Position numbers and translations under genes: made by a program | Origin: Bolinopsis microptera | Lineage: Eukaryota; Ctenophora; Tentaculata; Lobata; Bolinopsidae | Assembly: GCF_026151205.1 (NCBI RefSeq) | Contig: NC_087082.1 | Location: 818,501-882,500, forward strand | Direction: 5' to 3' | DNA: 64,000 bases | Notes under the pieces: generated by a model | What the model was told of the DNA's origin: nothing | Database searches by the model: none | The model's input: only the letters and a program-made list of their open reading frames with translations | Shown here: piece by piece, positions 15,177 to 64,000 of the stretch | Position numbering within the stretch: the first letter of the stretch is position 1 | Layout of the letters: each line of letters starts with the position of its first letter

Positions 15177-15844
15177 TTATCTTGAAATTGAAAATTAGCT
15201 GGGTGTGCATTTTCCTTTGTCTTACTAACGTGTGTGAGCGCAGTGTAGTGAGAAAGTGTTTTTAACAGATTTATTATTAGACTTAGGATTATGATTTTTA
15301 ATATATTACATTGATATAAGATTTATTTTTGATAGGTACTTAATAAAGTTGATGAATTTCCCTCCCTATTAAAATTTTAAACCCATTTAGTGAAAATTGA
15401 TAAACGAAGATCTAGATATTGATACATATTATAACCAACATTGCTTATATTCTGCCTTGTAAACAAAGAGCAAATCTTCTTAATGCCTTCTTCATGTCCT
15501 AAAACTAAAACTTCATCCTATTAAAGTAAAGGCCAGTTGTTACCACAAGCTATTATACCGTCCCTCTCAAAAACATGCCTCAGCCTCCATCAAAAACAAT
15601 TTTAGTTTTCAGTCCTTCTAGTTTCCAAAAATCTACCGAGCTAGTGTTCTGGTGTGCACAAAAGCCCCTAAGCCCGTGCATTCCTTGCCCCGCTAGCTGC
15701 CAGTCCTTGACAAACTTCCAATAGCAAAGATCAACTAGTCATTTACAAATTGAGCACTATACAATTTTAATTGTTTTAAATATTTGACTTTGTAAAATGA
15801 GCTAAAACATTGATTTATTAGTTTCATTGATTTATTAGTTTCAT
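15177..15844 (+). other. LINE C 3' UTR
   Basis: Noncoding AT-rich tail after ORF2. It ends in the 17-bp doublet at 15811-15844, next to resumed Copia gag sequence. No poly(A) tail is present. Confidence 0.55.
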
Positions 15845-16495
15845 TGACTCACGGCTGTAGGTCGTGTTTCTTTGATCTCTGTTAAATGGGGGTCTTTGAT
15901 TTCTTCTGTCTCTGTTGTACAGTACCTCCTCTTCTTCTTGATGACTCCCATAGAAGTTTATCTCTTGCTCCTCTTTAACAACGGGTCTAATCTGAATCTT
16001 GGAAGAGTCAGATGTGATTAAAGGGGTGTTAACATGTGAATCAGTTAATCGCAACAGTGCTTTTTTGGAGTCACTCATAGTTTTATTAGTACATGTTGAA
16101 TTAGCGATGCGCTTGTCACTTTCACTGAGCTGCGCTCCTTCAATAATTAGATATGAAAGAATTAAATCTGGAATTTCAAGTCCACCAGTTTTCAGTTTAG
16201 CAACCTTGCTTTCGTAAAAGTGAATATACTCTTTCATAGTTTGATCTTTACTGCGTCTAAATCGGTAAAATTGATCAAATTGGTCCATAAGATCATTGTC
16301 GCTTTCATAAATACAGTCCAATTTTTTAATGATTACAGCTACGCTAGTGTCTGCTTCATCAATTAGTAAATCTGACGCCTTGTCAGCCATGTTCATGATA
16401 AGTAAGACACCCTGTTTCTTAGTGTCATCCTCTTCACAAACTGTCACCCACATGGTGACTAGCTTCTTCCATTTGCTGTACTCACTGGCCTTCCC
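15845..16495 (-). pseudogene. gag: Copia gag, main part
   Basis: The frame reads from GKASEYSKWKK through KKQGVLLIMNMADKAS and an RSKDQTMKEYIHFYESKVAKL block to an Arg-rich C-terminus, the usual alpha-helical capsid of Copia elements. LINE A interrupts it upstream at 16496-16498, and LINE C cuts it downstream, where the last native codon is near 15845. The first nine codons lie at 23965-23991. The codon boundary at 16496-16498 is in phase with the AGT codon at 23965-23967, so the frame was intact before insertion. The few residues after 15845 on the minus strand are LINE C tail. Confidence 0.85.
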
Positions 16496-16498
16496 ACT

Positions 16499-16516
16499 TT
16501 TTTTTTTTTTTTTTTT
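16499..16516 (-). other. Poly(A) tail of LINE A
   Basis: Eighteen T on +, that is A on the element strand, immediately beside the gag codon AGT. An AATAAA-type signal lies about 10 nt upstream on the element strand (near 16528). Confidence 0.85.
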
Positions 16517-17430
16517 AAACAAATTTTATTTTATACCCACAATCAATTCATATTTAGTTCAAATATTTAAAGTCAAAATAACCATTTCACATAAGTGGTT
16601 ATATTATAATAAAATAATTTGTGATAAATTAATAAATTAATTTACACTCAAAAATGAACAAAATATACACAATTTTTACCTAGTGCAACACTGGTTCAGC
16701 GCGCGGCTGATCGAAAAAGTGTGATTTGATTTACTAACTACAGTGTACAGCGTACATGAAAAAATTACTTACTGAATCTTTTAATACTAGACACATTTTA
16801 ATTCAGATGTTGTTCAATGAGTTAGCCACAAAAATGTTCAAATTATGTAGGAGGGTAAAGGACACAATTGCTAGTAGTGCTTCTTTGTGCCCGTTGACTA
16901 CAATGAACATTTTGCGGAGTTTCTCCAGACGGCTTTTATCGGAGTGCGTGTTATTTACTTGGTTATGCACAAGCCAGGCCAACATTTTGTTTTTGTGTCA
17001 GCCGTGCTACCAGGTTGCAGAGTATTATAAACACTAAACAATTATACACTATACAAATTTGCTAATACAATATCATGCAGAGTCCGATCTAGCTGCAAAC
17101 GTCAGACACCACAGTTCAGCCGCCAAGTACCGTTTAAGTGAACACCGAAACACGAGGTTTAGGTGTCATTTTGTAAATCACTTTATGGATGAATAATTCA
17201 GTAATTGTTGAAGAAAATTACAGTCACTGCCACCTATAGCGTTATGTCATGGGTCTGATTAACGGCCAAGAATAAACGTACGTGCGCGCTTAAGAAACCC
17301 GCGCAAATGTTGAGGTAGGGAGTAGCTGCGGCGCGCTTTTAACATTTATTACGTATAGCGCCGTACGGAAACGGCAATATTTAAGTAATTAAGTATTTGT
17401 TTACATAAATTCCACGTTTTTATCAATAAT
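16517..17430 (-). other. LINE A 3' UTR
   Basis: About 0.9 kb without a convincing frame between the ORF2 stop and the poly(A). It contains GC-richer patches near 17270-17360. Confidence 0.6.
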
Positions 17431-18030
17431 CTAGCATGGTCCAAAACTGTTAAAGTTGTCATTATGCCACTCATTATCGAACCTGCTTTGGGCATCTAGA
17501 AGAGATCGGTTTAGCCTTGATTTGATTGAGTTACAGGATGTGTTCACAAAGTCAGGTTTATTCTGTGGATTGGAGTCCTTGAATTGATTCCAAAGCCAAG
17601 AAGATTTATAAATAAAGTTATGGCTTGGCTTTGGTGGTATTAGACGGTCATCCCTCAGTTCAGACATGTTAAGTAAAGAGTAGAGAGATATGGGTACCCT
17701 ATATTTCACTATTTTAAAAGGTTCAGTTATAGTACGAAGTTTGTAAAGATTATGAACAGTAAGGAGTTTATGACTGTTAAATAATGGTTTGGTTGATTCC
17801 TTGGAATAGAATTCAGCTCCTAGTTTTTGACAACATAAGGGTCTAACAAGTTTATTATGAACTACCGATTTAGAGCGGACACACTTTGCACATGGTTTAA
17901 TACGTGGATTAACAGAGTTATTAACATTAGACTCATATTTACCCAGTATTTTACATTGAATAGGTCTAGAACGAGCACATGTTTTGAATTTGTTTTGGTA
18001 TGAGTTTGCATCTCCAAAAATTATTCTAAT
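17431..18030 (-). pseudogene. LINE A ORF2 C-terminus after a frameshift
   Basis: Past the premature stop at 18021 the homology to LINE C continues in another frame, beginning IIFGDANSYQNKFKTCARSR (LINE C has LFGDREAYLDKFKTCARAR). It runs through NLYKLRT and KYRVPISLYSLLNMS to a stop at 17431. This is the RT connection/C-terminal region. A single 1-2 nt indel near 18030 explains the break, so this otherwise full-length copy is probably inactive. Confidence 0.75.
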
Positions 18031-20930
18031 AATCTCTTCTGTGTTAAGAATACAGGGTTGATAACTTGGTTAGAGACACCACCCCATACTGAGATGGCGA
18101 ACGTAAGGTGTGATTCAAATAGTGTGTGGTATATCTGCTTGTGCAGTTTTATAGGTAGACAGTTTTTTATGCGGTAAATACGTCCACAAGCACTTCTTAG
18201 TTTCTTATTTAGTGATTCGATGTGAGGTTTCCAGTTCAGTTTATCATCAATCAGCACACCTAGAAACTTAGTTGTTTTAACACGTATTATTATGGAGCCG
18301 TCTATGGAGAGATTTAAATCATCGGGTGTACTGCATGTAGACGATTCATTTACACGTTTGTTTGGGGAGAAATACATATAACAGCTCTTCTTAGCGTTAA
18401 TATGTAGTAGATTACATTTCATGTATCTAGAAATAGACGAAAGAATATCGTTAGCTACATCATAAACGTCTTTTTTCGAGTCTGCAGAAACGAATAGGTT
18501 AGTGTCGTCAGCAAATAAGATAAACTTGCCTTTATTAGATACGTTGCATAGGTCATTTATATACAGGAGGAATAGTAAGGGACCAAGAACAGAGCCTTGG
18601 GGAACTCCCCACTCAACAGGAAGTTTATCGGAGTTTTCATTTAAGACGTGAACATATTGGCTCCGGTTTGACAGGTAACTTTTTATCAAATTCAGTGCGT
18701 TGCCCCTAATTCCGTAATTATTTAATTTGAATAAAAGCTTCTCGTGAGATATCGTGTCGAAAGCCTTACTTAAATCAATGAAAATGCCAAGAACGTGTTT
18801 CCTGTCTTTTAAGTGTGATTCGATATGGCTAACAGATAAGTTCAGTGCGTGGCTTGTTGAGTGACCCTTTCTAAATCCAAATTGGTTCTCATAAATGATT
18901 CTTTTAGCAATTAGGAAGCTGTACATACGTTTATAAATAAGTTTCTCTAAAATTTTTCCAAATACTGGTAAGGTTGATATTGGCCTATAGTTTTCAAATA
19001 GTTCCTGATTATCTTTTTTATAGATGGGACTTATCTTTCCTAATTTAAGTTCATCTGGGAATATCCCCTGTTGCATGCAATGGTTAAAGTGCTTGGCTAA
19101 AAAGGGAGATATTATTCTAGCAGACTTTTTTATAACGTGAATTGGAATGTCACTAGATTTACCATTTGTGAACTCATTAATAATATCTATAATTTCATAC
19201 TGTGTACAATCACTTAGATATATACTTGACTCACAGGTTTTAGGTAAGAAGTTTGAGAATGAGGGAATTGCATCCAGGGTTATATAATCTTCAGAATAAT
19301 TTTCATTTAGTTTGGATGCAATCGACTGAAAATATTTATTGAATTCATTAGCAATCATCCTACGATTTATTATTTTTTGATCGTTAAGGATAAAACATGG
19401 CTTTATTTCACGCCTGGATTTTCCACGAATAGTGTTTATGATTTCCCACGTTTTCTTACTATCACCAGAGCAGTCAGTTAATTTACCTGCATAATGATTC
19501 TTCTTGACACGGTCAATAAGTACCTTGAGATGCTTCCTGTAATCCTTATATTCAAGGTATCTTTTTGCTATATTCATACAAGTGAGGCAATTACACTCCT
19601 CGCGTTTAATATTATTATTATTAGTTAGCAATAAACATTTTTTCTTCTGAGACTTTTTCCACAAATCATAGAGCGAGTCTTTCGTTCGAATTGAGGTAAC
19701 AATACCACTAGTAATCCATGGGTTGTTCAAAGCGTTACGTTTAGATAATTTCGGTTTGTCAAGTTTGAATGCCTCGTCTAGGTGCTTCTGAAAAGTAGTG
19801 CAGAAACTACTGAAGTTTTCAGGAGGATTGGTATGTAGTTCATTATCAATTGATGTGAGAAAGGCGTCTACATTTGAGGTGCTATAGTCGTAATATTGTG
19901 CGTGTTTAAGTTTAGGTTCATCAGCTACAAAATTAAGACAACTATTGATTTGAAAGATGGCATGGTGATGAGAAACATTGAGTTGCAACGTTCCTGTAAA
20001 CAACGTGCTTTCGATTTCATTAGTGAAAATATTATCAATACAGGATGGTTTACATTCAGGCTTTTCGTGTGTTTGGATAGATATCGTTGGTGAGTACCCT
20101 AATCCGAGCATTATGTTTTCTAATTCTTGTGTGCATCTTCTATTGCCGTTATGGAGGTTAATATTAAAATCACCCATTACATGTACATTTAACTTTGGGA
20201 GTTTACCCATAATTACTTGTAGCTCAGCGAGAAACTCGTCAATGTCTCCACTAGGTGGTCTATAGATTACTCCTACGTTTATAGTTTTAGATTCTTGATG
20301 AATAGTCACAAAGAGGCTTTCTAAATTACTGGTGACGTTTGATACATCTACATTAACGACTGCATTAAAAGCATTGTGAACATAAACTGCAACGCCCGTT
20401 CCTTTCGATTTGTTATGCATTGTAGTCTGGTAGAAACTATTGAATCCATTAATAGGGTAAACGGAACTCTCTTCTGGGCTAATATTGGTTTCGGCAAGGC
20501 CTATGATAGGGAAATTGTGTTTGAGGCACTCTAATTCAGATATGAGATGGTCGAAGTTGCTTTTATTGCCGTCGATATTCAGGAAGAAAGAGCCGCCATT
20601 TTTATGAAGATCGGCACTAAGTTCGTTATTAAATTTGTTGGTGGAGTAAGGCTTACAATATTCTAGAACTTGTGACATTTTCAGAATCAAGGGGTCGTTG
20701 TTATTGTTATCCGACTTACTAATCATATCTTTAAACGGGTTGTACTGTTTAAGGATTAGCGCTTTGCACTGACTACAAAAGTAATTTGAGTTGATCACGG
20801 TTGCTTCAGAGTTTTTGAAACATTTTTCATGTATAATGCAATTGCATTTAAAACATTCAACAAATTTTTGACCTAAACATAAGCTCTTAAGGCAGTGACT
20901 GCATTTTTCCTTATTTGAGAAAGTTACCAT
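18021..20930 (-). CDS. LINE A ORF2: PHD finger, AP-type endonuclease, reverse transcriptase
   Basis: 969 residues. Residues 11-56 form a PHD/RING-like finger (CSHCLKS, CFKCNCIIHEKC, CSQC). An endonuclease/exonuclease/phosphatase fold follows, with GLAETNISPE, IYRPPSGD and MGDFNINLH; its final block reads SHHHAIF. RT motifs are GFRKGHSTSHAL, FIDLSKAFDTI, GVPQGSVLGPLLF and catalytic FADDTN. The start ATG overlaps the ORF1 stop (ATGGTAA), which suggests coupled translation. The frame ends early at 18021 because of an indel; the C-terminus continues at 17431-18030. PHD fingers are reported for CR1-like ORF1; here ORF2 carries one too. Confidence 0.87.
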   Translation of the reverse strand: MVTFSNKEKCSHCLKSLCLGQKFVECFKCNCIIHEKCFKNSEATVINSNYFCSQCKALILKQYNPFKDMISKSDNNNNDPLILKMSQVLEYCKPYSTNKFNNELSADLHKNGGSFFLNIDGNKSNFDHLISELECLKHNFPIIGLAETNISPEESSVYPINGFNSFYQTTMHNKSKGTGVAVYVHNAFNAVVNVDVSNVTSNLESLFVTIHQESKTINVGVIYRPPSGDIDEFLAELQVIMGKLPKLNVHVMGDFNINLHNGNRRCTQELENIMLGLGYSPTISIQTHEKPECKPSCIDNIFTNEIESTLFTGTLQLNVSHHHAIFQINSCLNFVADEPKLKHAQYYDYSTSNVDAFLTSIDNELHTNPPENFSSFCTTFQKHLDEAFKLDKPKLSKRNALNNPWITSGIVTSIRTKDSLYDLWKKSQKKKCLLLTNNNNIKREECNCLTCMNIAKRYLEYKDYRKHLKVLIDRVKKNHYAGKLTDCSGDSKKTWEIINTIRGKSRREIKPCFILNDQKIINRRMIANEFNKYFQSIASKLNENYSEDYITLDAIPSFSNFLPKTCESSIYLSDCTQYEIIDIINEFTNGKSSDIPIHVIKKSARIISPFLAKHFNHCMQQGIFPDELKLGKISPIYKKDNQELFENYRPISTLPVFGKILEKLIYKRMYSFLIAKRIIYENQFGFRKGHSTSHALNLSVSHIESHLKDRKHVLGIFIDLSKAFDTISHEKLLFKLNNYGIRGNALNLIKSYLSNRSQYVHVLNENSDKLPVEWGVPQGSVLGPLLFLLYINDLCNVSNKGKFILFADDTNLFVSADSKKDVYDVANDILSSISRYMKCNLLHINAKKSCYMYFSPNKRVNESSTCSTPDDLNLSIDGSIIIRVKTTKFLGVLIDDKLNWKPHIESLNKKLRSACGRIYRIKNCLPIKLHKQIYHTLFESHLTFAISVWGGVSNQVINPVFLTQKRLLE

Positions 20931-22942
20931 ACCTGGTAACTGTACCCGCCTCCTCCTCTGGCAACTGAACTGAAGGGTCTCCCGTCAACTCTGCTAGTCG
21001 GTCCTCTTCGTTTATCAACTCCTCGGTGGAGCCTGGAAAATATGGTTTGTTTAATTAGGCCAGCAAGGACCCTAGCACCTAGTTCGTTAAGGTGAAGCGT
21101 GTCAGGCCTGTTTTGTCGATCAACTGTCTTGGACAATTGATGGACCAACATGCCATAATGATCAGCAAAGCCATTAAAACCTTGCACACTCTGAACACCA
21201 GAACTCATAGATGTAAGACCGTTCGTCAGCAGTTCATTAAACAAGTTAACTTTTCTATTCAAATCAGCAATTTTAGTAGGAAGCAGCGGGCAAACATAAA
21301 CAAAACATTTAGGGTTCAGCAGCTTAATTTCTTTTATTTTTGTTAACAGCGAACTACATACACTTCTGACGTTACTTTGAGGTTGCTTTATATCATTTAT
21401 CCCGCACATGATAACAACATTGCTGTAGGATTGACAGCTGTAAGGGTCAATGTTGTTGATTATAGGCGCCCATTCTTTAAGGCCAGGCATGAGTTCACCA
21501 AATGTATTACGTTTATTAGTCCCAAACTTGAGCATTCCTGTATTTGAATCTCCTATCAAGATTGTAGAGTTTTTGTTCTTCCAGTTAACTGATCTGAACG
21601 TGAGGCTATATCTGATGTCCTGGGTGACGTTACCTTCTGGAATTGAATGAGTGAAAAAGTCTTGTGATTTTCTTGTCATATGATAGAGTGATCGGTGGGT
21701 GGATGTTAGGTCAGACTTGACACCAGACTTTTTGTCAAGGAACTGGATGGAGCATTCTTGGCCGAGGGACAGTGTGAAAATGGATGATTCGACATCTATA
21801 GTGGGCTCGTCGTCTGAGTGGCTGGGAAGTGAACTATTAGGGCCTTCGTACCTATTTATGAGACATGAATTGATGACAGGAGGTGAAGGATGCCTCTCAG
21901 GATGTGACTTGAAGGTGGGGTGCTGTTCGTAGAATAATTCCTTTTGTAGGACATTGATTTTCTCCAGTATCGGCTGAAGCACCAGGGGGATTGGGGTTGC
22001 ATCGGCACCAGATTTGGAACCTGTATACGTGTAAGGAGCTCCGAATGCAACAGTTGAGCGGCCTGATTCAGACACAAATGACAATGACTCTAGTGATGTG
22101 GTGATATTTGAGGCTGTATCTTCATTGATGAATTCTAGTTTGAGGTCGGTGAAGCTTTTCTGATTGTGCTCTATGGTAGTTGTGGGTTCAGGGACAACTG
22201 TGGGTGGGTGGGTGAGTGGGTGGGTGGGTGGTGTGACACGACTAGGATGGACCCAGGGCTGAGAGCTTGATGGTGCTTGGGTGATTTGAGGGCTGCTTGA
22301 GGAGGCAGTTGATTTCTTAAGGTCATCCATACTAGACTGAAGCTCAGTGATCTGATTTTTCATAGTTTTAAGTTTCTCATCAACCTGACCTTCTTGGAGG
22401 GTCCGATGTTGAATATGTAGCTCAATGTCTCCTAGCTTGAGTATTCTCTCAGAAATGGTCTTGGTGGTAGCTCCGAGATCGTTTGTGTTGGATATCAGCG
22501 AAGTTAGTTTCTCCTCCATTTTCATGACAGTTTCTTCAAGATCAATGTTTTTATTCCTCAGATTAGACATATTGAGAAGTAAAGTCTCGATCTGTTGGTT
22601 GTTACGGATGGTCACGCCAGGGGCACTGAAACAAAGCGGACAGAGCCAATCCTCTATCTGTGTAACAAACTGTTCGGAAATACCTTTTAGATTACAACAA
22701 TTGCTGTGCCAGGTTTGAGGGCAAGAGGTACAATCAATAATCCATGAGGTTTTATCACTAGTTCCACAGGGACATTTATCATACCTGATGTCCGGTTTCG
22801 AGGTTTCTCCTGATTTGGTGGCTTTCTTCGGGGCCTTTTTGGCTGGGTCCTTTGCTATATCCTTTGCTGTACGGTTGGGGGTTGCTGCGGTCTTGGTGTT
22901 GGTGTCTTTCTTTAATACCATATTCACGGAAAACAAGATCAT
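20924..22942 (-). CDS. LINE A ORF1: PHD finger and SGNH esterase protein
   Basis: 672 residues. A Lys/Ala/Pro-rich N-terminus leads to a PHD-type finger (C57, C59, C71, C74, H79, C82, C101, C104). A coiled-coil-like stretch (about 110-210) and a Ser/Pro/Thr/His linker follow. The SGNH/GDSL hydrolase domain lies at about 460-640: TILIGDSNTG, IMCGINDIK and DTLHLNELG hold the Ser, Asn and Asp/His blocks. PHD plus esterase in ORF1 is an established arrangement of CR1-like LINEs, where ORF1 protein binds element RNA; the esterase substrate is unknown. The start at 22942 follows an upstream in-frame Met-poor region; MVLKKDT eight codons later is an equally likely start. Confidence 0.87.
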   Translation of the reverse strand: MILFSVNMVLKKDTNTKTAATPNRTAKDIAKDPAKKAPKKATKSGETSKPDIRYDKCPCGTSDKTSWIIDCTSCPQTWHSNCCNLKGISEQFVTQIEDWLCPLCFSAPGVTIRNNQQIETLLLNMSNLRNKNIDLEETVMKMEEKLTSLISNTNDLGATTKTISERILKLGDIELHIQHRTLQEGQVDEKLKTMKNQITELQSSMDDLKKSTASSSSPQITQAPSSSQPWVHPSRVTPPTHPLTHPPTVVPEPTTTIEHNQKSFTDLKLEFINEDTASNITTSLESLSFVSESGRSTVAFGAPYTYTGSKSGADATPIPLVLQPILEKINVLQKELFYEQHPTFKSHPERHPSPPVINSCLINRYEGPNSSLPSHSDDEPTIDVESSIFTLSLGQECSIQFLDKKSGVKSDLTSTHRSLYHMTRKSQDFFTHSIPEGNVTQDIRYSLTFRSVNWKNKNSTILIGDSNTGMLKFGTNKRNTFGELMPGLKEWAPIINNIDPYSCQSYSNVVIMCGINDIKQPQSNVRSVCSSLLTKIKEIKLLNPKCFVYVCPLLPTKIADLNRKVNLFNELLTNGLTSMSSGVQSVQGFNGFADHYGMLVHQLSKTVDRQNRPDTLHLNELGARVLAGLIKQTIFSRLHRGVDKRRGPTSRVDGRPFSSVARGGGGYSYQVW

Positions 22943-23923
22943 GGGGGTGTGCCAGGTGCCTCCGAGGTGCCACTTTCATCGAGTCAGCTTCGCCTGAAAT
23001 ATATAGATCATGGGTGGTGGTCTGGTGGTAATGAGTTGAAGCCAGGGAATTGATGTTGAGAGACACTTGAAAATTTCATTGATTTGCATGTTGAAACTGA
23101 AAGGTAATTTAATGAAATAATTAATTAAATAATAAGACATATGGTGACATGATAGGGGGGGGGGTGGGTGGGGGTGGTAGATGGATCTATTCATGCTTTG
23201 TTTGGGGAGGGTGGGTGGGGGTGGTGGATGGATCTATTCATGTTCTGTTTTGGGAGGGTGGGTTTTGGTGGTGGAGGGTTCCTTTTGGATTATTTATTAT
23301 GTTCGGGGAGGGATGCAGATGAACTACAGGCTTCAGAGTGAAGACAGTAGAGATAAATGGGGGTTCCTTTGAACAGGAAACATTGTGGCAGGCATGTCTG
23401 TTTGACAAACCTGCCACAAAAGGCTAGGAGTCAAGGTACAATAAACTTGAATAGTTCAATAAGTAAGTCAATTTAGAGAATAATTCATATTCATACTAAA
23501 TTCAAGTAAATAAATATATAAAATCTAATCAATCCTAAAGAATAACTCATACTCAAATTAATCAATATCATTATCATTATCATTATATAGACACTCTCCA
23601 ATATCATAACAATAGTGTAAGAACTTTCCGATAAATCAATATCAAGTAGATCATACTCTCCGAAACTACAGAAAATACAAATAATTCAAGGATGTGTCCA
23701 ACCAGAAGCCGGCAGTCCATGTGTTACATAGACTTTAAGGGATGGGGCAAGGGAGGGGATTTGGATGATCTGATGATTTATGAGGTTGTGTTCCATGATC
23801 TACTCATCTTCGGTTAGAGCTTCATCTCCGACAGTGGCACCTCTTCACACACCCTGCAACACCCCCACAGATCTTTGATCTTTAGCAACACATGGACATT
23901 GGGCTCCTGGCCTCACTTGACAT
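22943..23923 (-). other. LINE A 5' UTR with G-rich tandem repeat
   Basis: About 1 kb of leader before ORF1. Between 23154 and 23290 a unit of about 60 bp is repeated, with G-runs on the + strand (GGGGTGGGTGGGGG-like), so the antisense strand could form quadruplexes. An internal promoter for the element is expected here but no specific motif was recognised. Confidence 0.6.
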
Positions 23924-23964
23924 CCTCAAATTATTTGTTATATAGTAGTGTTGAAAGTATTAAA
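23924..23964 (-). other. 41-nt leader-like motif at the 5' end of LINE A
   Basis: On the minus strand it starts TTTAATACTTTCAACACTAC and ends AATAATTTGAGG. The same 41 nt occur at 63819-63859 (minus, 5' end of LINE E) and 39521-39561 (+, CAND1 intron 11). Here the interrupted gag codon shows that its first nucleotide is also the first nucleotide of the insertion. The flanking sequences differ completely among the three sites. Confidence 0.85.
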
Positions 23965-23991
23965 ACTGAAGGATGGAACTTTGTTCTTCAT
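23965..23991 (-). pseudogene. gag: Copia gag start (nine codons)
   Basis: An ATG at 23989-23991 on the minus strand opens a frame of nine codons ending in AGT, where LINE A begins. The next codons of the same frame are at 16495 and below. It lies about 25 nt inside the primer binding site, a short leader for a Copia element. Confidence 0.7.
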
Positions 23992-37100: not shown

Positions 37101-40100
37101 AACGTTAATGATAGTGTTCTCACTTTGTTTTTCTTTCAATTTGTTTTGTTGAGGATACTAGTTTCAGGTATCACAGCTGAAACTTTCTAATCTTGAAGTT
37201 AGTGATTGCACAATAATAAACTGTGCAGGGTATTTAGTACAGAACATCAGCAATTCCCTGTTTGAAGAGCTGATAAAGCATGTGATGGATAACCTTGTTA
37301 ACCCTACTAAAGTCCTTCAGAGCTACATCACCTGTATCAACGTCATCAGGTACTTCTTCTTACCGCTCTAGAGTTTTAGAGTTTTAATGTTTCTAGCAAT
37401 ATCCTGTATCAACGTCATCAGGTACTTCTTGTTTACGTCATCAGGTACTTGCTGTTACGGCTATAGAGTTTTAGAGTTGTAATGTTTCTAGCAATATGCA
37501 TTTTGTCTTTAAGTCCAAACATTAGCCGCAGTTTTGGGTTTGTTTATCAACGATTTATTATCATTTCAAGTGAAAACTGTAAATTCCATAGTGAATATAG
37601 CGTTATTTCAATAACAACCATACTCTTAGTCGACATGCTGGGCACAGGTTTGGCAACAAACTAAAGATAATAGTTCCTAAAGTAGCAGAGTTTGCTCATT
37701 CTGCAGGAGAGAATGATGACCTGAGGGAGTCTGCCATTCAGGTAAGCAGATAATTGTACAATGTACAATGTACAATGTACAATGTACACTGTACAATGTA
37801 CACTTTACAATGTACAATGTACAATATACAATGTACAGTGTACACTTTACAATGTACAATGTACACTTTACAATGTGCAATGTGCAATGTTCAGCACAGT
37901 TAATAGGTATACAATTTAAAAAAAACCGAAGCAGTCAGTTTGTCAGCTAACATTTCGTTTGTCAATTGCATGTTCTGGTTATTCATCAAATTTACATAAT
38001 ATTACACACAAATATGTAACGAATACTTGTTCAGGTTCTGGAGTCGTGTGTACTATGGTGTCCCGGAGAAATGCAGGAGTTTACCGCTCAGATAGTAGAC
38101 ATCTCCCTTACTTACATCACTTACGATCCTAACTATAACTACGACAGTGAGGATGAAGAGGATGAGGAGTATCTGTACGTTTTGAAATATTTCCTTGTGT
38201 TTTCTTTGGGCTAACACCACAATTATAATCAATAAATAATTGTGTTTTTATTGTGTTGTTTGAGGAATAATGCTATTTCTAAGTGATGCCTAGCCTCGAG
38301 GGTATTACAAACAGTTTGTGTACATTAGTTATACATGGTCTTCATTGACGAATGAGACGTAACCTTACAAGTTTTCAAGGTTTAAACTGACTAAATCAGG
38401 TTAAAATATTCACATCCCATACATTCACTCAATAAATGTATTTATTTGTAGTTGTGAAACTAGTTTAAAATAAGCTAGTAGTCGTCAGTATTACCTTATT
38501 ACATGTATTATACATTATACTGATATACTCAGGGATGACGAGGACGACTACAGTGATGACGAAGACATGAGTTGGAAAGTTAGAAGATCTTGTGCGAAGT
38601 GCCTCTCTGCTATTGTCCAGGTTATTTATATTTCGTGTTTGAAAAGTTATTCTGTTTTGAAGTTTCAGCAACAAATACAGCAAGATTTAAATGAACACTA
38701 CTACTCAGTACTCACCTCATTCAATACACCCACAAAATAACAATATAACCAGTATAACTGCAGTCTAACATTCAATACAACAAACAAGATACAAGGGCAG
38801 ATCACAGCTTGGTAACTGCTTGGGCGGCGATCGTGTTACCACTACACCACCCGGCCTCATTCAATACACCCACAAAATAACAATATAACCAGTACAACTG
38901 CAGGCCCGTCCCGAGCTGCTATGTGATATCTACACCCGCATATCCCCTGTCCTGATATCCCGTTTTAAGGAGCGGGAGAAGAGTGTCAGACTGGACATTT
39001 TCAACACTTACTCCTGTATCCTCCGTCAAACTGCTGCCAGTAAACACGATATTGCCCCTGAGGACGAGATGCAGGATGTCACGTGAGTGCAAGTGGGGGG
39101 CCGGGGGGTGTAATTAGCTGATTAGTGTTTTGTAATGCTCCGAAATTATAACGAATTAAATTTAGTGATCTGTCGATCATGATGTGGTTGTTAGAAATAA
39201 CTTCTGATCATTTACAATTTTGTTTTATAAACTGAACCTGAATGTCTAGTACTTACAATCTATTTTGTATCTACAATTTACACACCCGTCCACCCGTTCA
39301 GGCCGCTAGCCCAGCTGGCAACACAAGTAGATGCCATTGTACGTGGTCTAGAGAAACAGTTGTACGACAAGAACGACAAAACACGACAGAGTTGTTTCTC
39401 CTTGTTGGGCGAGCTGGTTACTGTACTGCCTGGCTGTCTTACCTCTTATGTGGATATTCTTCTGCCTGCTGTTCACAAGTCTCTTAGGTATTATACTAGG
39501 GGTAACTGGGTGTTGTATACTTTAATACTTTCAACACTACTATATAACAAATAATTTGAGGAAACGATATAACAGAGTCGATATATTTTAATGTTGCCAT
39601 GGGGTGGCAAGTCCCCATACATCGTGGTCCAGTAGTTTCATTGCGTCCTAATATTAGTGATACTACTACACTTTATACAGTGACTGATTAACTGATTAAG
39701 CATTGTTATCTGAACAAAACAATAAACTGCTATAATATATTATCCTTTCCACCAGTACAAAAGGAGCAAGTTGTTACATAAAGATAAGCTCTCTGTCCTT
39801 CCTCCGCACACTTCTCACTCATCACTCTCCTGAAGTGTTCCAGTCTAACCTCCCTGATACACTCTCCTGTGTTATTGGTGCTGTTCAGGACACTTTTTAC
39901 AAGGTATCATTATTTTCACACAGTATAATTAGATGGTGGGACCAACTAATGTTTTGCTTCATTTTTTATATAATTATATATAATATGCATTCTTTTCAGA
40001 ACTCATTTTTGCAATGGACATCATTTGTTTATCGATATAATAAGATGATCATACAATTCTTGTAATTCTTGTTACTCCTGTAACTCTTGTAACTCTTGTT

Positions 40101-58683: not shown

Positions 58684-59192
58684 TAGCTGCTTACAATACT
58701 GACCATATAATGCTTACAATACTTACAATACTTACAATATAATGCTTACAATACTTACAATACTGACCATATAATGCTTACAATACTTACAATACTTACA
58801 ATATAATGCTTACAATACTTACAATACTGACCATATAATGCTTACAATACTTACAATACTGACCATATAATGCTTACAATACTTACAATACTGACCATAT
58901 AATGCTTACAATACTTACAATACTGACCATATAATGCTTACAATACTTACAATACTGACTATATAATGCTTACAATACTTACAATACTGACCATATAATG
59001 CTTACAATACTTACAATACTGACCATATAATGCTTACAATACTTACAATACTGACCATATAATGCTTACAATACTTACAATACTGACCATATAATGATTA
59101 CAATACTTACAATACTGACCATATAATGCTTACAATACTTACAATACAGACCATATAATGCTTACAATACTTACAATACTGACTATATAATG
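58684..59192 (+). repeat. 32-bp minisatellite, block 3
   Basis: About fifteen units of TTACAATACTGACCATATAA plus TGCTTACAATAC, in the opposite orientation to blocks 1 and 2. Ends at the LINE E 3' junction. Confidence 0.95.
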
Positions 59193-59562
59193 AAAAAACG
59201 AAACGAAACGAAACACTGTATTTACTACCCCGCTACTATGCGACAAAGATATTGTATAAAGTTAACTAAATAATTTACACAATACGGTGCCCATGTCTGA
59301 GCGGCTCTCCTCAAATAACTTTCTCTCCTCCTCGGAGCAGAAAGTTAAAAACAAAACACGGGTCTCATAAATCAAAAAATACTAAATAATGTTAAAGAGA
59401 TCATATCAGATTAACTGTCGCAAAAAATGGTTAAAGTATACATATTACATAATTGATTTTATTGACACACCGATAAAAACCAGAAAAACAAGAAGTGGAT
59501 ACTCGGAAAACAAAAAATAACACAAAAAAAGACTAGAAGCCACAAAAAATAGCTTAACCAGG

Positions 59563-62517
59563 CTATAGTTGATCATACAAATAGTTCTTTAACTTACCCT
59601 TAAAAGAGACAATATTGTCGATATTACGGACATTAAGAGGGAGAGAGTTCCATGATTCAGGTGCATAGTTGCTGAACCGCCTGCTAGTTGCCTTCAATTT
59701 AGAGAACTTAGGTATCTTCATAAGAAGGTTGCATGCTGTTTTTGTTCTGGTTTCTTTGACAGCCTTATCATCTCTGTTCATTTGAACCAACTCTTGGAGG
59801 TACATTGGTGCCAATCCATGGGTCACTTTGAAACAGATGAGACACACTTTGAAAAATATCCTCTTTTCAACAGGGAGAATATGAGCTTTCTTGTAGAAAG
59901 GAGACAAGTCAGTATTTCTGTCATAGATGTCGTAAATGAAACGTATCCCTGCATTTAGAACAGATTGCAGCTTCTTCACTCTAGTCTTTGAAAGATTCAT
60001 GTAGAGGGCATTACAATAGTCCAGCTTTGATATGATCAGTTGTTTGACCAGCATGAGCTTAACTCTCTCATCTAGATACTTTCTGATAGTTCTAAGATTG
60101 TTCATTGTCCAGGAACAGTTCTTCCTAACGTTGTTAATCTGCCTTTCCATGTTGAGAGATTCATCTAGTAACACTCCAAGACTCTTCCAGGTATCGTTTT
60201 TGCATACAGTTGGTGTAATAATGGTGTCACCAAACTTTATTGTTATTTCAAGGTCAAACTTCTTCAGTACCAAAGGCTTTCCAATGACTAACAATTCTGT
60301 CTTGCTCTCATTCAGTTTCATGAAATTATTAACCATCCATACTTTGATTTCAGACAGACAGTCATTGATCCTACTAGTGACATTCTGCAGCTCCATGGGT
60401 CTCATCGGGTGGAAAGCTATATAAAGTTGTGAGTCATCTGCATAAAGCTGAATATCGAGACCATACTTTCTAGCTATTTCCTGGAGCAGCTTAATGTATA
60501 AGATGAACAGGATCGGTCCCAATAGAGAGCCCTGGGGTACCCCAAACAACAGACACAGGAAGTCAGATAATGAGTCATCTACCTTAACCTTGAAAAACCT
60601 GCCTGAGAGGTATGAACTAAACCATTTCAATGCAGAGTCCTTAATACCAAAATCTTTTGCCAGCTTCTTAAGAAGGATTGTATGATCAATCGTGTCAAAA
60701 GCAGCAGAGAGATCAAGTAGGACTACAATCACAATGTTGTTCTTCTGCACTTCCTTAAGAATATCGTCTGCCATCCTGACCATCAGGGTTTCACAACTGT
60801 GGTTCGCTCTGTATCCAGACTGAACTGGGCAATGCAGACTGTTTAAATGTAAGTGATTGTTTAACTGCTCAAGTACAATCTTTTCAATCAGTTTAGACAT
60901 AACTGCAAGATTTGAGACTGGTCTGTAATTCTTCAGAATATCTGGATCAGCATTCTTCTTCTTGATAGTGGGCTTGACCAGTGCAGTCTTCATCTCGGCT
61001 GGAAACACACCTTGCAACATAGAACCGTTTATTATGTGCAGGAGGATCGGTGCCAACTCCTGAGAGCATTTCTTCAACATGAAAGTTGGAATAGGGTCAA
61101 GACTACAAAACTTGTTAGACATCTTAGAAATGGTGTGTAACAGGTGCTGCCTAGTGATGGAGTGAAATTTATCAAATGATGGCCCTGAATAGGTGCTTTC
61201 AAGATTCTCTGACGATGACAAGTTCCCTCCGATATGACTTCCTTCTTCTTCTATCCCAAGTCTGATATCATTCACTTTATCCGCAAAGAAAACTTTAAAA
61301 CTTTCTGCCAGTTTTTTAGTGTCATTACCATGTGGCCTTTCTTGGGTAGTTTCACCCGTGAGTCTATAAACTTTCTTGTACAGAGCCTTCGTATCTCCCG
61401 CAGAGGCTAAGAGGGCTTTTCTATTGTAAGTAATCCTCTTCTGTCGCTCAATGACAATAAATTTGTTCCTGAGGTTGACAAAAATATCCTTCTGTCCCTT
61501 GCCTTTCCTCCAGGCTCTCTCAGCTGCTCTCCTCTGCCTCTGTAAAGCTTTCAGATCCTGATCCATCCAAGGTTTACCTTTGTCTTCACTCTTCATCTCC
61601 TTACTGATCACAGGACAGTGCTTGTCCATAAGTTCCAATAGAATACTATTGTACATCTTAACTGACTCATCAAGACTCTCAGAGCACCAAGCATCTCTTT
61701 TACAGAGATCAGAAACCAAAATATCTGCTTTAAAATCCTCAACCACAATACTTTTAAAATCACGGTAGTTCATCACCCTAGTATCATTCAAAGAGGTCTT
61801 CAGGCTCACAGACACTACAAATTTAACAAGAAAATGATCTGATCTAGTCCCAGATTCCACAATGTTAATAGAAGTTATAGAGTCTTTAAAGACTTTGGTC
61901 GTTATCACGAGGTCAAGAGTTCCTCCTTGATTGTGAGTTCTTTCTAGTGGTACACATTGGATGAAACCAAGCTGATCAAGAAGGGAAAGAAACTTTGCGG
62001 GGTAAAGATCTTTAGGTCTTTCAACATGTAAATTAAAATCCCCTGCAATCACCGGGGTTCCTGGCTTACCGGACAAATCACACAGGTATTCACTGAATTC
62101 TTCCAAGAAGTGGCACTCAGTGTACCTGGCCTTTTTGGTGTAAGGCGGTCTATACACATCAATAAGTCTGATTATCCCACTATTTGTTTCAAGTACAACT
62201 TCCATGACTTGGTAAGACTTGTACTTCTTGACTCTACCGTTGCTTTTCAACTTAAGGTTCTTATTGAAAATTATACCTATTCCTCCGCCACTACGATGCT
62301 TCCTTGGGTTGGATAAAATACCCCAACCAAAATCTCGTATCTCTTGTAGCTTTGCAGTATCTGCTTCCTTAAGAAAAGTCTCTTGAAGAAAACAGATATC
62401 AACCCCCTCATCAGTTAGGTGCTCAAGAACCTCTACTGTCTTGTTCACTAGACGATTAACATTAAACGTGGCTAAGACTAGTTTATCCCAAGCTCTCTTT
62501 GTCGAATCTTTGCCCAC
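59563..62517 (-). CDS. LINE E ORF2: AP-type endonuclease and reverse transcriptase
   Basis: 984 residues without breaks. The endonuclease starts at LATFNVNRL (about 15) and shows CFLQETFL, VYRPPYTKK, AGDFNLHVE and SGTRSDHFLV. RT shows NYRPVSNLAVMSKLIEK, LLDLSAAFDTIDH, GVPQGSLLGPILFILY and catalytic LYADDSQLY. The C-terminal region (YAPESWNSLPLNVRN) is typical of CR1/L2-group LINEs. The start overlaps the ORF1 end by 40 nt in another frame. It has no PHD finger and is clearly a different family from LINE A. Confidence 0.9.
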   Translation of the reverse strand: MGKDSTKRAWDKLVLATFNVNRLVNKTVEVLEHLTDEGVDICFLQETFLKEADTAKLQEIRDFGWGILSNPRKHRSGGGIGIIFNKNLKLKSNGRVKKYKSYQVMEVVLETNSGIIRLIDVYRPPYTKKARYTECHFLEEFSEYLCDLSGKPGTPVIAGDFNLHVERPKDLYPAKFLSLLDQLGFIQCVPLERTHNQGGTLDLVITTKVFKDSITSINIVESGTRSDHFLVKFVVSVSLKTSLNDTRVMNYRDFKSIVVEDFKADILVSDLCKRDAWCSESLDESVKMYNSILLELMDKHCPVISKEMKSEDKGKPWMDQDLKALQRQRRAAERAWRKGKGQKDIFVNLRNKFIVIERQKRITYNRKALLASAGDTKALYKKVYRLTGETTQERPHGNDTKKLAESFKVFFADKVNDIRLGIEEEGSHIGGNLSSSENLESTYSGPSFDKFHSITRQHLLHTISKMSNKFCSLDPIPTFMLKKCSQELAPILLHIINGSMLQGVFPAEMKTALVKPTIKKKNADPDILKNYRPVSNLAVMSKLIEKIVLEQLNNHLHLNSLHCPVQSGYRANHSCETLMVRMADDILKEVQKNNIVIVVLLDLSAAFDTIDHTILLKKLAKDFGIKDSALKWFSSYLSGRFFKVKVDDSLSDFLCLLFGVPQGSLLGPILFILYIKLLQEIARKYGLDIQLYADDSQLYIAFHPMRPMELQNVTSRINDCLSEIKVWMVNNFMKLNESKTELLVIGKPLVLKKFDLEITIKFGDTIITPTVCKNDTWKSLGVLLDESLNMERQINNVRKNCSWTMNNLRTIRKYLDERVKLMLVKQLIISKLDYCNALYMNLSKTRVKKLQSVLNAGIRFIYDIYDRNTDLSPFYKKAHILPVEKRIFFKVCLICFKVTHGLAPMYLQELVQMNRDDKAVKETRTKTACNLLMKIPKFSKLKATSRRFSNYAPESWNSLPLNVRNIDNIVSFKGKLKNYLYDQL

Positions 62518-63695
62518 TGGAGATAAGAGTTTTTTGATGTTTCACATCCGCTCGTTCTGGCCATGATATAACTCTGCTCTCTCACATAAGATGGGCATAA
62601 TCTGTCAGCTGCAGAATGTGTCTTGCATTTATCTTTGACATTCTTGTCTTTACTGTTGCTGCAGTTCGTACACTTGATACTAGATCTTCGGCCCGCCGTT
62701 TTCTTCTCACAATCTTTCGATTTGTGGGCACCTGCACAGTAGAAGCACACTGGGTCGGCATTATACTTCTTACACTTACAGTAATCACTGCCACTCATGT
62801 GTCCGAAGCTCTGACAGTCAAAGCACTGGATTACATGATACCTATCCTTAACTTTATACTGTCCAAGATCAGCGTGTACAAAGTCACCTGACTCCCTTAT
62901 AGACTGCCTGATTTTCACTGACACTTGTAGGCATGCCCAGGTCTTGTTTTTCTCCAGGAAAATAACCTTGAAAGTGTTGTTCTCATCTTCAACTAAACTC
63001 TTAATGGAACTGTTCTTATCAAGGATGCTCTGGCGCAATTCTTCGGATGACTCAAAATCTCCCTTGAGATCATACATAGTAAGCTTAGGTTCAAGCATTG
63101 TCACGGTGTGGGATTTTGCAGACACTTTGTAGTCCACACTAAGAGCATCTTTAGCTTTCTCCATAAGTTCCTTGTTCTTGAATATTAACCTTGCTGTGCC
63201 TTCTTTGACACCTGAGACCCCTTTAATAGGGATGCTGGGCAGTATTGATGCGACATGTTTCTTCACCTTTGAGGACCAGAGTTCTTCTGTTATCTTATCT
63301 GCCTCATTCTGCCCTTCCAGAGTTAAAGTATGAGTCTCACTGGGTCCGAGATTGGTCTTAATCTCAGGTATAATATCTGGACCACCTTTATTGTGCTCAA
63401 TGAGAATTTGTCTAAATTGTGCTAGCTCCTTTCTCACTATATCTAGTGCCTCGGTAGCTGTCCCTTCCTGTGGTGCAGGTGTGTCTAGTTTAGACTTGGT
63501 CTTCAGTAGTGACAGGGCCCTCTTACTGAAACTGTATAGTTCCTTTATAACTTCAAACATATCCGGCTTGCTATTCCCTGTGGGTAAGTCTAAAGAATCT
63601 GCAATTATAGTATCCAACTTCTTCTTACCTTTTAAACTGTCGTTTAACGTTTCTAACTCCTTTTCCATCTTGTCATAGACATCAGTGATAACCAT
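62478..63695 (-). CDS. LINE E ORF1: zinc-knuckle nucleic-acid-binding protein
   Basis: 405 residues. The N-terminal third has helical, charged sequence. The C-terminus has three zinc-knuckle-like clusters: C291/C294/H299, C317/C320/H324/C329 and C342/C345 with H360/C367. This is the usual RNA-binding arrangement of LINE ORF1 proteins and takes the place of the PHD/esterase protein of LINE A. No break is seen. Confidence 0.85.
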   Translation of the reverse strand: MVITDVYDKMEKELETLNDSLKGKKKLDTIIADSLDLPTGNSKPDMFEVIKELYSFSKRALSLLKTKSKLDTPAPQEGTATEALDIVRKELAQFRQILIEHNKGGPDIIPEIKTNLGPSETHTLTLEGQNEADKITEELWSSKVKKHVASILPSIPIKGVSGVKEGTARLIFKNKELMEKAKDALSVDYKVSAKSHTVTMLEPKLTMYDLKGDFESSEELRQSILDKNSSIKSLVEDENNTFKVIFLEKNKTWACLQVSVKIRQSIRESGDFVHADLGQYKVKDRYHVIQCFDCQSFGHMSGSDYCKCKKYNADPVCFYCAGAHKSKDCEKKTAGRRSSIKCTNCSNSKDKNVKDKCKTHSAADRLCPSYVREQSYIMARTSGCETSKNSYLQWAKIRQRELGIN

Positions 63696-63818
63696 TGCTG
63701 TAAAGGATTTGAGACCTCTCTACTTTAACTCAAACCAAATAAATATAGTGGTAAGTGCTGAAAAGTACTTGATAAACCCACTAAAAGCTGTTGGTCGTCG
63801 TTTAAAACGCAGTAAAAA

Positions 63819-63884
63819 CCTCAAATTATTTGTTATATAGTAGTGTTGAAAGTATTAAAAAATAGTAGTGTTGAAAGTATTAAA
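63819..63884 (-). other. Leader-like motif at the 5' end of LINE E, with partial duplicate
   Basis: 63819-63859 matches the 41-nt motif; 63862-63884 repeats its first 23 nt. The minisatellite begins at 63885. The sequence following the motif inside the element (TTTTTACTGCG) is unrelated to LINE A. Confidence 0.85.
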
Positions 63885-64000
63885 ATGCTTACAATACTTA
63901 CAATACTGACCATATAATGCTTACAATACTTACAATACTGACCATATAATGCTTACAATACTTACTATACTGACCATATACTGACCATATAGATAAATAT
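63885..64000 (+). repeat. 32-bp minisatellite, block 4
   Basis: Continues block 3 in the same orientation after LINE E and runs off the window. Confidence 0.92.

Follow-up and report, generated by a model that had tools for sequence, protein, structure and literature searches.

A putative spliced leader at the DNA 5′ ends of many retrotransposon families in a ctenophore

A short sequence repeated within a 64-kb window of ctenophore DNA (the window being the whole stretch analysed, 64,000 nucleotides) is, as judged from sequence, best read as a host spliced leader (SL), and retrotransposon families very probably take up this leader by trans-splicing of their transcripts before reverse transcription. 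The original prediction of a trans-spliced leader at this motif is supported by donor genes that carry an Sm-like site, by the 5′ ends of two LINEs of the window, termed LINE A and LINE E, and by the match to a published ctenophore SL.

The motif as first proposed, a 41-mer, was confirmed as three exact copies in the window, at 23924-23964 and 63819-63859 on one strand and 39521-39561 on the other, with flanks that all differ. In leader orientation, the copy at 39521 lies on the plus strand, those at 23924 and 63819 on the minus strand. Although the repeat is real, its ends had been placed wrongly by a few bases. The 41-mer, which on the opposite strand reads TTTAATACTTTCAACACTACTATATAACAAATAATTTGAG followed by G, lacks the 5′ AGT of the complete unit (AGTTTTAATACTTTCAACACTACTATATAACAAATAATTTGAG) and includes one base of the element body. 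Of 101 copies read, 42 have AGT in front of this sequence; two of the 42 are SL RNA genes. The full unit was therefore taken as 43 nt. Within it, the dinucleotide AG occurs at positions 1-2 and 42-43 only. The window contains the following leader copies:

23925-23967, minus strand: full 43-nt leader copy, the first bases of LINE A, same as the exon of 9 of 13 SL RNA gene representatives; 23924 is the first body base
63820-63860, minus strand: leader positions 3-43 at the LINE E 5′ end
63862-63885, minus strand: incomplete second leader (positions 3-26) on the 5′ side of the LINE E leader, adjoining the minisatellite target
39521-39560, plus strand: leader positions 4-43 heading a short element whose body runs from 39561 for ~97 nt (L038 compared with L069); the original prediction placed this site in an intron of a putative CAND1 gene

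The genome searched comprises 264.65 Mb in 232 contigs. A 35-nt leader core is present there in 1,066 exact copies, against 0 for the reversed control, which excludes chance; with up to 3 mismatches, the number rises to 1,644 (578 inexact), and the reversed control again gave none.

Genes that could donate such a leader were found mostly in tandem arrays. A search for the leader followed by GT, which returns bodies starting with GT by design of the query, gave 236 places, including a tandem array on C3 with 591-bp spacing. A 19-nt exon-donor pattern, made up of the exon end and GTAAGATTAAGTT, was located at 83 sites, 36 on C3, 12 on C5 and 32 on C13, with three scattered. The arrays are as follows:

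C3:13510964-13551326: SL RNA gene array, spacing 591 bp
C5:21341787-21352031: SL RNA gene array, spacing ~857 bp
C13:12783474-12952512 and C13:15242043-15247431: SL RNA gene arrays, irregular, with some 880-bp steps and ~700/854-bp steps

The gene units read comprise the 43-nt exon, a GTAAG donor, a hairpin, the Sm-like site ATCTTTTGG and a 3′ hairpin. Folding and alignment of representatives revealed that the Sm-like site between the two hairpins is either ATCTTTTGG or ATATTTTGG, and that the stems are conserved while the loops are variable. The donor-bearing small RNA gene on which the original prediction depended, with leader, GT and an Sm-like site, is thus present at these 83 sites, its structure having been read in representatives. 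On C3, 36 places are identical (100%) over 137 nt among the best 40 of 1,283 candidates. The exon of 13 representatives is the exact 43 nt in 9, carries one change in 2 and is degenerate in 2; in the 9 exact genes the exon is unchanged although the flanks vary. Likeness to the Rfam SmY RNA amounts to 23-26 bits, below the gathering score of 39, and no 5S rRNA match was detected near the genes in two 4-kb pieces of C3 and five pieces of ~0.4-0.5 kb elsewhere. Eight of the 9 exact-exon genes read have C immediately before the exon, and C also precedes leader position 1 in 21 of 42 copies (two of them SL RNA genes); transcription may, in part, start one base earlier.

A spliced leader of ctenophores was reportedly described by Derelle et al. 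in 2010. End-to-end alignment of the present leader with the Hormiphora californensis SL gave a score of 52, whereas 2,000 shuffles averaged 4 and never exceeded 25. The two leaders belong to the same length class (43 nt here versus 44 nt), have a near-identical core and both end in TTTGAG. The accessible part of the H. californensis account (PMC8527503) reports that its SL is carried by 56% of Iso-Seq reads, that genomic leader copies number 718 in H. californensis and 491 in Mnemiopsis, and that shared first exons may reflect mapping to the nearest leader locus. Like those two genomes as described there, the present one contains hundreds of leader copies. It differs from that part of the account in that the donor genes form separate arrays, and in that different bodies follow the leader in the copies read away from these arrays, whereas the same part holds no link of genomic copies to retrotransposons.

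A sequence common to different retroelements at the 5′ end could, in principle, be a shared promoter and no leader at all, as is Pr77, a promoter sequence at the 5′ end of otherwise different trypanosomatid retroposons according to the accessible part of PMC8190864. The likeness extends to both being short 5′ sequences common to otherwise different elements. Nevertheless, Pr77 is described there as an element promoter, while the motif analysed here is the exact exon of SL RNA genes with a donor and an Sm-like site and matches the leader on Iso-Seq reads of another ctenophore, leaving the promoter explanation with next to no probability; it was dropped after the SL RNA genes were found.

At the LINE A locus, the leader is placed at the first nucleotide of the insertion by the flanking DNA. 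The features of this element are:

16498-23967, minus strand: LINE A insertion, 7,470 bp, from 5′ leader to 3′ poly(A), with a T run of 19 at 16498-16516 on the plus strand
20924-22972, minus strand: LINE A ORF1, with 2OG-Fe(II) oxygenase above the Pfam cut-off (E 2e-13) and, below it, PHD (E 0.0016) and GDSL lipase (E 0.0011)
18024-20984, minus strand: LINE A ORF2, with reverse transcriptase RVT_1 (E 4e-38) and endonuclease (E 5e-5, just below cut-off)

When the short flanks are joined they form an open gag-like frame with one codon split C|GT, and the argument that an interrupted codon fixes the motif at nucleotide 1 therefore stands, although the insertion starts at 23967, 3 nt earlier than first claimed. 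The term gag is the label of the original prediction; Pfam gave no match for the interrupted frame, 15827-16525. The copy ends in poly(A), as had been stated, and a target-site duplication was not found at the insertion ends. A body search for LINE A copies of at least 92% gave leader sequence in 9 of 9 that were found to reach the junction, one search behind this count covering the best 40 of 1,094 candidates and being biased to GATGT bodies, these bases being in the query. Eight of the nine carry the leader from at least position 8 onward, one with one change and one with several; the ninth is truncated inside the leader, of which the last ~10 bases remain. Among relatives of ~70%, the leader was at the expected place in 3 of 7 (one exact, two 98% over 51 nt), the other 4 counting neither way. 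At C1:17436879, an exact 35-nt core adjoins a LINE A-like body of 70%.

LINE E comprises the following features:

59193-63885, minus strand: LINE E insertion, with a (GTTTC)n-T tail at the 3′ end, within a minisatellite; ends read by eye
59566-62541, minus strand: LINE E ORF2, with endonuclease (E 1e-9) and reverse transcriptase (E 2e-30)
62481-63719, minus strand: LINE E ORF1, with no Pfam match and no significant similarity to LINE A ORF1

The minisatellite hit by this element lies at 58800-59192 and 63886-64000 and has a unit like ATGCTTACAATACTTACAATACTGACCATATA. The leader is at the LINE E 5′ end, as claimed, through its positions 3-43, but the 41-mer does not supply the very first bases, since it is preceded by the partial leader of positions 3-26. 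Leader sequence was present in 17 of 17 LINE E places found to reach the junction, among the best 40 of 790 candidates. The comparison of 5′ ends proposed for both families thus gave the leader in every junction-reaching place found (9/9 and 17/17), with changes seen in some of the body-sampled copies (L006, L008, L133 and L134). The description of the two LINEs as unrelated is right for the ORF1 proteins, which displayed no significant similarity on comparison, and wrong for the ORF2 proteins, which are distant relatives (24% identity over 880 aligned positions). When these two elements were examined for marks of retroposition, LINE A displayed the T run and the split codon but no target-site duplication, and LINE E the (GTTTC)n end.

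Among copies read away from the arrays, the splice junction is exactly where bodies of unrelated sequence start. A sample of 58 such copies (L029-L078) derives from 61 of the first 100 listed core places, 3 having been dropped for identical near flanks; the 61 comprise the top 30 of the list and 31 from 20 regions chosen from it, some picked for close pairs or tandems. Because these copies were retrieved by the exact 35-nt core, neither leader decay nor starts past position 9 are visible among them. They fall into 28 body clusters. GTAAG follows the leader in 0 of 58, the last four upstream bases of the SL genes (CTGC, CGGC or GGGC) precede position 1 in 0 of 58, and the first body base is mixed (A17 G15 T13 C13). 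Sorted by post-leader sequence, the 101 distinct copies that were read, among which are two SL RNA genes, form 45 clusters; one of these is that of the SL RNA genes, and at least one family is split (clusters 4 and 18). The leader is the exact 43 nt in 42 of the 101 (two of them SL RNA genes), and 78 start at leader position 1, 2 or 3, starts past 9 being excluded by retrieval. The outcome that had been named as fatal to the leader interpretation, a motif forming part of a longer dispersed repeat, was not seen among these copies, and that possibility was dropped as the bodies after the leader differ. The dispersed copies resemble DNA made from spliced RNA.

The same junction bears on a route without trans-splicing, in which the reverse transcriptase, on finishing the element RNA, jumps to SL RNA, comparable to snRNA chimeras. 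A jump onto SL RNA would normally enter its 3′ part and take the intron side along, whereas the dispersed bodies begin at the donor position and none of the 58 sampled copies contains GTAAG. Partial double leaders do point to such jumps. With an exact pattern, a partial leader before another leader was found at 63862-63885 of the window and at C2:2127392, C6:1941285 and C13:815278, and 8 further places match both window LINE E leaders less exactly (among the best 40 of 790 candidates) and were not read as double leaders. In the four partial tandems the junction lies inside the leader, away from the splice donor, and is thus not one that splicing at the donor could make. These partial double leaders likely result from template switching, and some template switching therefore probably occurs, but as a general origin of the leader copies it is very unlikely.

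Open reading frames follow the leader closely in several families. In four families, eight copies in all have an ATG 2 or 7 nt past the leader that begins an ORF of 135-466 aa, some of these frames running off the locus end:

L094 and L096: 323 aa
L086 and L087: at least 466 aa
L050: 272 aa
L077: at least 135 aa
L070 and L078: open at the locus end

In these four sampled families the leader is practically the entire 5′ untranslated region, the element itself adding almost none. This is not general, since an ATG at nearly the same post-leader place in LINE A gives only a 13-codon frame and the first ATG of LINE E lies 125 nt downstream of the leader. When 18 further post-leader ORFs were compared with Pfam, 11 matched at E ≤0.01, several below the curated cut-off (PHD-type in 7, 2OG-Fe(II) oxygenase in 4, GDSL in 1), and 7 gave no match; reverse transcriptase was found in 0 of 18 within the 1.4 kb examined, beyond which it may lie. 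These ORFs may encode LINE ORF1 proteins; reverse transcriptase was demonstrated for LINE A and LINE E only, and the remaining families are thus putative LINEs. In a separate observation, L032 (C1:1414922) displays the leader, then 19 untranslated nt and a repetitive ORF of 103 aa that starts like a signal peptide, and is a candidate retrocopy of a host mRNA.

In the mechanism proposed, the tandem SL RNA genes would give rise to a short RNA whose first 43 nt are trans-spliced onto mRNA acceptor sites, and transcripts of many retrotransposon families, which we infer to be trans-spliced in this species, would receive the same host leader. Target-primed reverse transcription would then copy the element RNA from its 3′ end to its presumably capped 5′ end, and, with copying extending to the RNA 5′ end, a full-length new copy would carry the leader from its first nucleotide. 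In this DNA copy, the AG that closes the leader could itself act as an acceptor, the incoming leader then taking the place of the previous one and leaving no scar. Against this mechanism, GAG is a weak 3′ splice site.

Addition of the leader anew in each cycle is suggested by exact 35-nt cores on relatives whose bodies are 70-82.5% alike, by an AG at the very end of the leader and by the lack of full tandem leaders, head-to-tail pairs with ≤6 nt between them numbering 0 in the genome with an exact pattern. Our confidence in this renewal is moderate, as the lack of tandems also fits inheritance and the exact leaders were retrieved by their exactness. Alternatively, each LINE lineage may have captured the leader once by trans-splicing and inherited it as DNA ever since, selection acting through better translation or stability of SL-type mRNAs. 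Such a history agrees with the finding that all LINE A (9) and LINE E (17) copies found to reach the junction have the leader in their DNA, and head-to-tail pairs would likewise be absent without re-splicing. The constancy of the leader is harder to accommodate: 35 of 35 letters are kept at 70-82.5% body identity, for which equal rates of change give a probability of 4e-6 to 1e-3 per pair, odds that are overstated because the compared copies were retrieved by the exact core. The odds for 70% were computed for a C10 relative with an inexact leader; the relative at C1:17436879, with an exact leader, is also at 70%. Selection on a DNA-encoded leader could be another cause of this constancy, but one-time capture would require equally strict selection across many families, and we regard it as rather unlikely. 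Only for LINE A and LINE E were copies sampled through the body; the other families were reached through the exact core. Under repeated trans-splicing, dozens of ctenophore retrotransposon families might depend on the host for both the cap and the 5′ leader of their RNAs, the leader in DNA, with an AG at its very end, serving as a self-renewing and scarless acceptor; we put this wider proposal forward tentatively, at somewhat under even chances.

Host leaders joined to retroelement transcripts are described elsewhere. The available portions of the respective reports state that in Hydra the SL is carried by 30.9% and 29.7% of TE Iso-Seq reads (PMC12220107) and that in C. elegans SL1 is added to Cer1 mRNA, the 8-kb Cer1 RNA not being trans-spliced at the SL1 site (PMC3315495). 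The present elements would resemble both in receiving a host SL. This contrasts with the present genome in one respect, since those portions report the leader on RNA, while here the DNA of many families itself has the leader fixed at its 5′ end. In dinoflagellates, retroposed trans-spliced mRNA leaves leader relics in retrogenes (DinoSL/DinoRL; PMC12014239, PMC6050394, as far as these are accessible), a similar case of a leader left in DNA by retroposed trans-spliced RNA. DinoRL lacks the first seven nucleotides, the new leader being spliced inside the old, and relics follow the new leader, according to the same sources. The present leader, in contrast, has AG only at its two ends, no full tandem pairs of it were found, and the carriers studied are mobile elements. 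Re-splicing of the dinoflagellate type, leaving a relic, was dropped in view of the 0 full tandem leaders found genome-wide with the exact pattern.

Ctenophore leaders, Hydra TE leaders, SL1 on Cer1 and dinoflagellate retrogene relics are thus already in print. A literature search, with most subscription journals outside its coverage, found no report of many animal LINE families whose DNA begins with a leader, and what seems new is the fixation of the leader in this position in so many families. The hundreds of leader copies in ctenophore genomes could then find an explanation: in the present genome, those read away from the arrays resemble 5′ ends of retroposed RNAs, and the donors form a few tandem arrays. 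The leader marks full-length 5′ ends of elements and retrocopies, so that LINE 5′ ends, usually hard to define, can be read directly. Retroelements may, moreover, rely on a host RNA-processing step for the 5′ end of their mRNA.

Leaders also head short bodies of ~70-210 nt, which form eight clusters. The copy at 39521, without leader positions 1-3, is not a bare leader but heads one such element, shared with L038 and L069. A hammerhead ribozyme had been suspected in short families from CTGAAGA...GAAA seen by eye and was discarded, as no Rfam hammerhead match was obtained at E ≤5 in L061-L063 or at E ≤3 in L100, L029, L035, L045 and L038. Matches to microRNAs in short families are all below Rfam gathering scores and probably reflect inverted pairs. 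At seven places two leader copies stand head to head (L041/L042, L055/L056, L061, L062, L063, L064 and L100/L101); these are short elements, mostly of one family per pair, and the junction between the leader 5′ ends varies. Finally, the leader lies within tandem units of one family at L059 (C2:1844300-1845800) and L060 (C1:24530000-24531000), with steps of ~181, 204, 140 and 101 bp, an arrangement that we take to resemble the 5′ monomer arrays of some LINEs.
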